This document shows positions 23,495 through 26,574 of a DNA stretch of 27,810 nucleotides, one piece after another (position 1 is the stretch's first letter; each line of letters begins with the position of its first letter). The DNA comes from a virus. Location of the stretch: the IMG/VR virus record IMGVR_UViG_3300047477_000139, positions 1 to 27,810 of that record; one strand, given 5' to 3'. Both the position numbers and the translations under genes were made by a program. The notes below the pieces were generated by a model. That model was not told the origin of the DNA. It saw only the letters and a program-made list of their open reading frames with translations, and did no database searches.

Positions 23495-23860
23495 CTACCC
23501 CTTAGCTTCGGCGAACACAGGCACATCCCGTCCGTTGGCTGCGTGGTATGCCTGGACGATATGGACGGGGATGCGTCCCTTATCTGATACCGCGTATCCG
23601 TTCTTCGACGCCCAATAGCGGATGGCATCTAGTTCGGCGTTCGGTGCGCTTTTCTTCCGGGGCACCGAGGCGACTGTGGGTGCTATGCGTGGCACTTTCC
23701 TGGCGGCTTCTATGAAGGGTTCCAGGGCGGTGCGTAGCCGGTCAATGTTCTTGCTGGATAGGTCTAGCTCGTAAGTGTTGGCCCCCAGCGCAAAGGTGAT
23801 GGTTTCGTCTGCTTCCAGTTCGGGGTCTAGGTCATCGAACAGGGTCACTTTTTTGCCCAT
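23495..23860 (-). CDS. lsr2: Lsr2-like DNA-bridging protein
   Basis: 121 residues, ATG behind AAAGGGAACTAA. It starts KKVTLFDDLDPELEADETIT as in host Lsr2, followed by the dimerisation beta/helix segment (TYELDLSSKNIDRLRTALEP) and the C-terminal DNA-binding region IRYWASKNGYAVSDKGRIP. The KGRI motif at 94-97 replaces the RGR core that inserts into the AT-rich minor groove in Lsr2; one arginine-to-lysine change may alter affinity. Host Lsr2 silences foreign DNA; the phage copy may counter or mimic it, or act in the lysis-lysogeny choice. It follows the HNH gene with a 2-nt gap. Confidence 0.9.
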   Translation of the reverse strand: MGKKVTLFDDLDPELEADETITFALGANTYELDLSSKNIDRLRTALEPFIEAARKVPRIAPTVASVPRKKSAPNAELDAIRYWASKNGYAVSDKGRIPVHIVQAYHAANGRDVPVFAEAKG

Positions 23861-23862
23861 TG

Positions 23863-24366
23863 TTAGTTCCCTTTCAAGGAATGTTGTTGGCAGTTCGACA
23901 CGATACCCCTGTCGGCATTGTTGTGGGTGTAGAGGCTGTTCCTTAGCTTGATTGCGGCAGCTTCGGCTTCGGCTAGATCGGTGAAGCAGCCGCCGCTATA
24001 CCTGCGGTCTCCGTGGCGAACCTGAACTCGCCACCTCTTTATGTCTTTCTGCCAGGAAACCCCGCGTATGCCACTCTGGCTGTCTCGGTGGGCACCGGAA
24101 AGGTTCTCGATGTTCTGCTTGTTCGTTACAGGGCGCAGATGGTCAGGGTTTACACATCCCTTGTTGTAGCAGATGTGATCTAGGAACATGCCGTCCGGTA
24201 TCGGACCTACCATCCACTCGTAGGCAACCCGGTGGGCGCACTTCTTACGCAGGGAGGAATCCAGAAAAAATAAGCCGTATCCTGCGGGGTTTTTGCACGC
24301 TGTCCAGAACCAGCATTCGTCAGTCTTTTCGACCTTTGCCCAAAACCGGGCTTCAACTTTACTCAT
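23863..24366 (-). CDS. HNH endonuclease with AP2 DNA-binding domain
   Basis: 167 residues. Residues about 1-60 contain FWAKVEKTDECWFWTACKNP and HRVAYEWMVGPIPDGM, the usual N-terminus of phage HNH homing enzymes. The active site is LDHICYNKGCVNPDHLRPV (Asp63/His64, Asn73, His76). Residues about 99-146 are an AP2-type domain (GIRGVSWQKDIKRWRVQV ... FTDLAEAEAAA). Such genes are mobile and often lie next to essential genes. The upstream ribosome-binding site is weak, and the lsr2 site lies inside its 3' end. It could be an insertion between the repressor-integrase locus and lsr2. Confidence 0.9.
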   Translation of the reverse strand: MSKVEARFWAKVEKTDECWFWTACKNPAGYGLFFLDSSLRKKCAHRVAYEWMVGPIPDGMFLDHICYNKGCVNPDHLRPVTNKQNIENLSGAHRDSQSGIRGVSWQKDIKRWRVQVRHGDRRYSGGCFTDLAEAEAAAIKLRNSLYTHNNADRGIVSNCQQHSLKGN

Positions 24367-24647: not shown

Positions 24648-25505
24648 TTATGAAACCCGTAACGGTGCAGGCTTCTGACCTGCATAAGCCGCCTCGGACA
24701 CTCCGCGCACTTCTGACTGCGACACCGCCACATACCGCTGAGTGGTGGCCACCGACACATGCCCCAAAGCCTCTTGAACAGCACGCAGATTCCCCGTCCC
24801 GGCATAGCCGCGTGTGGCATACCGGTGCCGCAACTTATGGATCGACCAGCCCTTAGGCATCAACCGGCCGATCAACTTCCCCACATGCTGTGGGGTGACG
24901 TGATCGCGCACCACATTCCCCCACCGATCCACACCAGGAAACAGAAAGCCGCCCCGGCCGTCCGAATGCTCGAGGATTTCCTGCGCTAAGTGTTCCGTAA
25001 TGGGCACCACCCGCTGCTTACCGCCCTTGCCGTGGACGATCAACGAATAGCCGATTGGCGGTTGATTATCTTTTGCTTCTACGTCAGGGCAAACAATCGG
25101 CGGCGGGTCTTCGCCAGTCACGCAATGTTCCCTGATAGTGCTATGTTTCGGGCTTAGCTTCCAATCGGACGGTTCTTGGTTCGAATCCAAGCGGGGGAGC
25201 TGGCTAACCGTGCCATTGGTGCTGGTGTCGGCCCCTGACTTATCACGTTTCGACGTGCCAGCAACCCCCGCGCCTATGAGGGATGCCGTGTTGTATCCGG
25301 TGATCTGCGCCCACGCATTGATGAAGGGCGGTTTCGGTGTGGTGCGTCCCGTTTCCCAATTGCTGATCGTGGACGAACTCACCCCCAGGACCTCGGCCAT
25401 CTCGTCTTGTTCAAGACCGGCCTTGATCCGCGCTAGACGAAGCAGGTCGCAGGTTTCGACCACAAGGTCCCTGCCGCTTTCGTAGTCGTCCAGTTTTCTG
25501 TTCAT
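24648..25505 (-). CDS. Repressor-attP-integrase fusion ORF
   Basis: 285 residues in one uninterrupted frame. Residues about 20-72 are an XRE-type HTH (QDEMAEVLGVSSSTISNWE at 33-51), as in phage immunity repressors. Residues about 103-117 (LPRLDSNQEPSDWKL) are encoded by the antisense of a tRNA 3' half. From about 152 it is a tyrosine-recombinase catalytic C-terminus: the beta-hairpin Lys in VHGKGGKQR (160/163), HKLR (His223, Arg226), LGH (His249) and Tyr258. The box I Arg and the arm- and core-binding domains are absent, so catalysis is unlikely. The ATG has no Shine-Dalgarno, so leaderless translation is possible. It may be a deletion fusion of separate rep and int genes. Confidence 0.8.
   Translation of the reverse strand: MNRKLDDYESGRDLVVETCDLLRLARIKAGLEQDEMAEVLGVSSSTISNWETGRTTPKPPFINAWAQITGYNTASLIGAGVAGTSKRDKSGADTSTNGTVSQLPRLDSNQEPSDWKLSPKHSTIREHCVTGEDPPPIVCPDVEAKDNQPPIGYSLIVHGKGGKQRVVPITEHLAQEILEHSDGRGGFLFPGVDRWGNVVRDHVTPQHVGKLIGRLMPKGWSIHKLRHRYATRGYAGTGNLRAVQEALGHVSVATTQRYVAVSQSEVRGVSEAAYAGQKPAPLRVS
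25158..25200 (+). other. tRNA 3'-half within ORF, probable attP core
   Basis: The plus strand contains a perfect T arm: CTTGG (25175-25179), loop TTCGAAT (25180-25186), CCAAG (25187-25191). It is followed by CGGGGGA plus G, fitting an acceptor 3' strand and discriminator. Upstream, CTTCCAA then TCGGA fits an anticodon loop (TCC, glycine) and stem 3' strand; the complementary 5' stem is missing, so this is not a whole tRNA. Phage attP cores copying a tRNA 3' end are common in actinobacteria. CCA is not encoded. Confidence 0.8.
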
Positions 25506-25587
25506 TACACAACGCTAGCCCCAGCTCGCAACCGGTGGCAAGAGCTGAAAGTCCCAGTTCAAAACGCATTGTGGCGTAGATCACTTG

Positions 25588-25610
25588 ATTGTCGGTTGAC
25601 AGCAAACAAT
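25588..25610. promoter_or_regulatory. Candidate operator and -35 element
   Basis: ATTGT and ACAAT form inverted arms, and inside them TGTC-GGTT-GACA is a smaller palindrome. TTGACA (25596-25601) matches a -35 consensus for rightward transcription; only a weak -10 (CAAGAT, 18 nt on) is visible. It lies between the divergent repressor ORF and the rightward small genes, exactly where a repressor operator would be expected. Confidence 0.45.
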
Positions 25611-25659
25611 GGTGCACTGCAAGATTGGCGTACACCACATTTTGAACAGGAGCTAGAAA

Positions 25660-25767
25660 ATGGAACGCGACCCCATCTGGGACACCATCATTGCGGCCGG
25701 ATCGCTGGCCGCGTTCATCCTAATCTTCGCCTATGCCCTTGCTGGCATGTGGCAGCCTTACGCCTGA
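25660..25767 (+). CDS. 35-residue single-TM membrane peptide
   Basis: ATG with AGGAG 7 nt upstream, an excellent ribosome-binding site. The peptide begins MERDPIWDTIIAAGSLAAFI, has one hydrophobic helix over residues about 9-30, and ends MWQPYA. It is the first rightward gene opposite the repressor, the place where cro or excise usually lies in related phages, but it has no HTH. The strong start signal supports expression; the function is unknown. Confidence 0.65.
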   Translation: MERDPIWDTIIAAGSLAAFILIFAYALAGMWQPYA

Positions 25768-26331
25768 TATAAAGGCACGCCGCTACGGCGTGTCGCACCG
25801 AATCTGTCGGTGCCCAATGCTTTACTGATAGGACAACTTCACAGTCACCGTAAACCCCCTGGCGTGTTCTGAGAAACAGTCCAGGCGAGACGGCCCACCA
25901 GGCCGGATGCCAGGGGATCACGGTGATAGCTTTACCTGGCACAGATTCACCAGGCGATCGTCGGTGCACCTACAGCGGTGCCGCTTCGCGCCGGTTTGTC
26001 TGTCACCATTGCCCGGAAGGGTCCGCCCTTCCAAGCACCACCTTTACGGGTGAGGTAACTGGCCGCTTCGGCGGTGATACGGGGATGGTGGGAATGATGT
26101 GCCGGGATTCGCACGGGCCGTCTGGCCATCCAATATGGGGCGACATACCTATATGGGTGCGGGGGATCAACGCCCCCGTCGTGCACCAAAACCGCCGGGG
26201 TTGAGCCGCCGCTTTGGGCAGCGCAGCGCCATCGTTGTGGGTTCGGTGGCCTATGCGGCTCCCCCGGCGGTCTCCCACCACAGGTTTACAACTGAATACG
26301 GCAACCAGATAACGCAACCAGGAGCTAGCTG
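25768..26331 (+). other. Hairpin-rich stretch without convincing gene
   Basis: 564 bp hold several stem-loops in series: two abutting hairpins at 25774-25813; CCTGG...CCAGG near 25859-25886; GCCAGG...CCTGGC enclosing ATCAC-G-GTGAT near 25909-25940; GGAAGGG-TCCG-CCCTTCC near 26021-26039; a CCGC-TTCG-GCGG tetraloop near 26062-26073; and GGTGC/GCACC around CGGGGG/CCCCCG at 26156-26187. Reading frames here (25923-26204, 26099-26332) lack good start signals. It could be a structured noncoding RNA, a long leader or an origin. Confidence 0.5.
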
Positions 26332-26574
26332 ATGCGATCGACTGACCCCCGTTTTGAAGACCTGTCCCACGACGGCCAAGTGGCTTTGGCTGTGTGGGCT
26401 TTGTTCGTGAAGGCCGAGCCGGCCGACCACGTTGCCTTACCTGATCCCGTGTATGCCCGTGCTGTGGGCGATATCGCCACCACGATCGGCCTGCGTTCCC
26501 GTAAGGCCCGGAACTACGAGGACATTCACCGGAAGCGCCGCAAGAACCGCACCAAGAAAGCGGTGTCGGTGTGA
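26332..26574 (+). CDS. Small helical basic protein, unknown function
   Basis: 80 residues, ATG behind AGGAGCTAGCTG. It starts MRSTDPRFEDLSHDGQVALA, has a helical middle with DPVYARAVGDIATTIGLRSR, and ends in a strongly basic tail (HRKRRKNRTKK) that could bind nucleic acid. It heads a run of tiny overlapping genes, and its stop overlaps the next GTG. No known family is recognised. Confidence 0.78.
   Translation: MRSTDPRFEDLSHDGQVALAVWALFVKAEPADHVALPDPVYARAVGDIATTIGLRSRKARNYEDIHRKRRKNRTKKAVSV

Follow-up and report, generated by a model that had tools for sequence, protein, structure and literature searches.

Integration-dependent immunity has been described in mycobacteriophage BPs and its relatives, in which attP lies within the repressor gene (rep), the integrase gene (int) is adjacent, and integration shortens the C-terminus of the repressor (PMC4557955). 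Immunity systems of this kind are also found in prophages of M. abscessus (PMC8092301). The viral form of the repressor typically ends in a C-terminal degradation signal, -AA, which some of the known members nevertheless lack (PMC8092301). We analyzed a locus related to these systems in IMGVR_UViG_3300047477_000139. The window, that is, the whole stretch of DNA analyzed, is the complete record of 27,810 bases. It is a linear IMG/VR virus record, a type that is often a fragment, and was treated as a fragment here.

At this locus the repressor, attP and part of an integrase are found in one ATG-started frame without any internal stop (Table 1). Pfam HTH_31 (residues 21-70, 1.9e-12) and Pfam Phage_integrase (residues 155-263, 4.4e-13) both exceed the Pfam cut-offs within this single ORF, the latter match covering only positions 57-170 of the 172 in the profile. 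The PHROGs matches are arranged in the same way, with phrog_2328 at residues 22-123 and integrase families from residue 157. The repressor part shares 45% identity with the immunity repressor of Gordonia phage Arri over residues 8-76. A first-pass annotation of this DNA had described one frame containing an HTH, a tRNA antisense segment and integrase motifs; the ORF check, the Pfam matches and the tRNA match described below confirmed this description. No INPHARED record covered 80% of the fused ORF in one place. In the AlphaFold model, the pLDDT was 92-96 for the HTH, below 50 for residues 82-148, and mostly 50-83 for the integrase part. The ORF terminates in PAPLRVS and has no -AA signal. Since some known members lack this signal, its absence alone does not exclude the locus from the group.

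Table 1. Features of the fused repressor-integrase locus
Feature	Position	Strand	Remarks
Fused ORF: repressor HTH, attP and integrase C-terminal fragment	24648..25505	-	285 aa; Pfam
Tyrosine integrase C-terminal fragment, residues 152-285	24651..25052	-	K, H, R, H and Y retained; no Arg I or core-binding domain
Link of 110 nt from attP core to integrase homology; deletion junction somewhere inside	25053..25162	-	No similarity to 13 relatives above shuffled controls
attP common core, antisense 3' half of tRNA-Asn(GTT), within repressor frame	25163..25200	-	37/38 nt to the L172 tRNA-Asn gene
Repressor HTH domain	25293..25445	-	Residues 21-71; Pfam HTH_31/HTH_3; PHROG 2328 transcriptional repressor
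Intergenic region upstream of repressor, expected promoter/operator site	25506..25659		Position suggested by the BPs layout (PMC4557955)

In the intergenic region upstream of the repressor, a promoter scan gave no signal above chance, and a search of the intergenic regions for operator palindromes returned nothing telling. Pfam gave no HTH match in the ORFs scanned to its right, and no xis- or cro-like gene was found there. Several relatives have such an excisionase or Cro-like gene, transcribed away from the repressor; none was seen among the ORFs scanned in the stretch 25506-26332.

The 38-nt attP core (GCTCCCCCGCTTGGATTCGAACCAAGAACCGTCCGATT) lies inside the repressor reading frame. The tRNA-Asn gene that it matches comes from a genome selected from the family to which Mycobacterium parascrofulaceum belongs. 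The tRNA segment noted in the first-pass annotation is thus real and precise, although it occupies residues 102-115 and not 103-117. Weaker matches to phage tRNAs hinted at tRNA-Gln as the att gene; this candidate was dropped in favor of tRNA-Asn. No full tRNA was detected in the window by ARAGORN and Rfam.

When the repressor of the window was spliced in silico to the host tRNA-Asn, the resulting protein was 114 aa long and ended in SQLPRLDSNQEPSD (PSD, then the stop), with an immediate stop at GAT-TAA. The TAA following residue 114 is supplied by the anticodon region of tRNA-Asn. The repressor of an IMG/VR prophage (L184) ends in SQLPRLDSNQQPSD followed by its stop, the record itself ending in GATTAA, and the repressors of prophages L185, L186, L187, L215 and L216 stop at the same GATTAA. 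These prophages support the splice model independently, although the record of L184 yielded no matching integrase. These facts indicate that the ancestor of this locus had ordinary integration-dependent immunity. The earlier proposal that integration trims the repressor right after the tRNA segment is supported by both the splice model and the prophage repressors, so that, as judged from the sequence, a shorter repressor with a nearby stop would be formed upon integration.

The integrase part is less complete. Its homology starts at residue 152 of the ORF, with 50-52% identity to annotated actinophage integrases and up to 70% identity to IMG/VR contigs. The residues listed in the first-pass annotation (K160/K163, H223, R226, H249 and Y258) are all present at those positions. 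What was overlooked is the lack of the Arg I motif, which reads LRRAEVA in relatives, and of the entire core-binding domain; the catalytic set of a tyrosine integrase is thus incomplete. The aligned relatives carry Arg I, and they carry the core-binding domain upstream of the shared part. In an alignment with 71 distinct integrases, in which a column was called conserved when it was conserved in at least 93% of them, the window kept 29 of the 30 conserved columns from residue 152 on. Of the 22 conserved columns that precede this residue, the window has gaps in 17, those of Arg I included, and the remaining five coincide with the link, over which the alignment cannot be trusted. No convincing relocated N-terminal piece of the integrase was found elsewhere in the window, and the 27.8-kb record, itself a fragment, gave no second Phage_integrase or Resolvase match. 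The locus thus contains only a fragment within the fused ORF and not a separate functional tyrosine integrase. Judging from the tyrosine recombinase family, a fragment without Arg I and the core-binding domain should not recombine DNA.

The spacing between attP and int was then compared with that in relatives. From the start of the attP core to the first shared integrase residue there are 148 nt here. The corresponding stretch measures 609-881 nt in 12 relatives in which attP and int are arranged in this order; L076, a thirteenth locus, stands apart as an outlier with 1456 nt. About 461-733 nt (~0.46-0.73 kb) are therefore missing. An open frame of at least 150 aa precedes the shared part in all 78 relatives kept for alignment, a set that leaves out L010, with its broken frame, and any locus whose open frame extended for fewer than 150 aa to the left of the match; the integrase frames of the shorter relatives begin at a record end. 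L010 (2266-3399 and 2405-2917) is the closest IMG/VR integrase by identity. It is split across two frames, with the N-terminal half in another frame, which points to a frameshift or else to another integrase that is broken. In another relative (L024, 2413-4176) the integrase frame is 587 aa long and has a long C-terminal extension.

The link was compared with 13 relatives, both as a repressor tail and as an integrase N-terminus, and nothing rose above shuffled controls; the exact junction therefore cannot be placed. Likewise, no protein matches were found in the link left of about residue 151. A deletion best explains the fusion, the lost segment comprising the stop and tail of the repressor, and the start, the core-binding domain and the catalytic Arg I of the integrase. 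The comparison with relatives that the first-pass annotation had proposed showed that rep and int are separate genes in that order, that attP lies in rep, and that the repressors end before int. In virus-form relatives (L013, L018, L022, L189, L221 and others), the repressor reads on to its own stop, mostly with -AA. No repressor-integrase fusion was present among the relatives examined, and a narrow literal-phrase search of the literature found none.

We therefore consider that an ordinary integration-dependent immunity cassette gave rise to this locus by losing ~0.46-0.73 kb between attP and the middle of int, the frame being kept by accident, with a probability of roughly 0.88. On this view a known switch has been damaged, and no new switch has arisen. 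Two proposals of the first-pass annotation, the derivation from a cassette with attP in rep and int downstream, and the fusion of rep and int by a deletion, are thereby supported, the former by attP and the relatives, the latter by the shortened spacing and the missing first half of int. The ancestral phage would have made a repressor with an -AA tag and encoded its integrase separately, as the relatives do. The present integrase fragment would be inactive, and the phage would not lysogenize by itself. Since Arg I and the core-binding domain are gone, the phage could not reach the 114-aa repressor state with its own integrase. The fused repressor would carry a 171-residue tail without the -AA tag. 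If the deletion is real, the fused form is expected to be weak or inactive as a repressor, because a stable and active full-length repressor would hinder lytic growth.

Retention of 29 of the 30 conserved integrase positions means that the event is either recent or an artefact of assembly. We lean towards a recent, real deletion that gave an int-minus, lysogeny-defective derivative. The other form of the same explanation, which the first-pass annotation had itself raised and which we regard as the less probable of the two and yet a substantial one, is that two true sequences or strain variants were misjoined in the assembly and that rep and int are normal in the phage itself. It would be in keeping with the type of record, with the undecayed integrase part, as expected of an intact gene, and with the failure to find a second contig with the same junction. 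On the other hand, no repeats that would favor a wrong join were found near the junction, and a 4.1-kb IMG/VR contig (IMGVR_UViG_3300046821_000096; L180 / L183) is 99.96% identical to positions 1-2779 of the window, though it stops short of the locus. This contig indicates that the phage is real; it does not confirm the junction. It apparently represents the same phage and extends beyond the left end of the window by 1.3 kb. A megablast search of INPHARED gave no sibling contig carrying the locus, and IMG/VR single-protein scans with the fused ORF and with the repressor part gave no sibling and no second copy of the junction. The scan with the lysin found one distant relative, and that with the major tail protein found the 4.1-kb contig and a 32-kb relative ending before the locus.

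Some observations count against a deletion. The relatives from which the deletion is deduced have integrase parts of about 45-70% identity, no intact sibling having been found over the locus. The frame is open and in register across the junction, for which the chance is ~1 in 3 for the register alone, and the catalytic part is undecayed, which would also fit a part under selection. The open frame and the undecayed tail, together with an attP geometry that still yields the 114-aa repressor, could be taken to mean that the repressor and the integrase remnant work as one protein, in which the tail provides oligomerization, DNA contact or instability of the viral form and is removed by another integrase. 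This seems improbable to us: Arg I and the core-binding domain are missing, residues 82-148 have very low AlphaFold confidence and the tail only moderate confidence, none of the relatives examined shows a second case of fusion, and no integrase that could act in trans was found in the 27.8-kb record, itself a fragment. Slightly less probable still is the specific case that the recombinase-derived tail keeps the viral repressor inactive and is lost when an integrase provided in trans carries out the integration. The "novel design" considered in the first-pass annotation is accordingly not supported, the relatives offering no fusion and a fused design being unneeded as an explanation; nor is the suggestion that the integrase tail takes the place of a degradation tag, in view of what the tail lacks and of the absence of a fused relative. 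Finally, the two domains passing the Pfam cut-offs in one ORF might suggest a full-length integrase of ordinary type that carries an HTH at its N-terminus. We give this practically no weight, for it is contradicted by the separate rep and int of the relatives, in that order and with attP in rep, and by an integrase part without half its domain set.

Directly downstream of the fused ORF, as a homing-type neighbor of the deleted region, lies an HNH_3 endonuclease (23863-24366, minus strand) with an AP2-type DNA-binding domain, the AP2 match being below the cut-off. It is followed by a phage-encoded Lsr2-like nucleoid protein (23495-23860, minus strand), in which the dimerization and DNA-binding domains are both present. 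The phage is actinobacterial and probably mycobacterial; its host is suggested by the att match and by the related phages.

The locus adds a tRNA-Asn example of integration-dependent immunity in which the lysogenic repressor is precisely predicted at 114 aa, and it illustrates how such a cassette appears once the integrase is lost. If the deletion is real, the phage would represent a natural derivative defective in lysogeny. Should it instead stem from assembly, the locus would caution against accepting fused regulators in metagenomic phage contigs without the support of reads.

Several described loci resemble the one in the window. In the Gordonia Wizardviruses (Arri, Wizard and Twister6), a repressor-integrase pair lies on one strand and both parts match the ORF in order; they differ in having two overlapping genes, of 137 and 311 aa. 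The IMG/VR virus contig L013 has a separate 305-aa integrase that shares a WGN insert with the window, and its repressor frame, like those of L189 and L221, ends on its own stop. M. abscessus prophi79-1 (MW584153, L003) carries 35 nt of a near-identical att core beside int, the copy showing 3 differences over 38 nt and lying at the record end, ten bases before the integrase. Its integrase is 51% identical to the window fragment. That integrase is 340 aa long, has Arg I and starts about ten bases past the core, whereas here the start and the first half are gone. As in the BPs group (PMC4557955), attP lies in rep, int adjoins it and the C-terminus of the repressor would be trimmed on integration; unlike in that group, rep and int form one frame here, there is no -AA ssrA-like tag, and int is without its N-terminal half.
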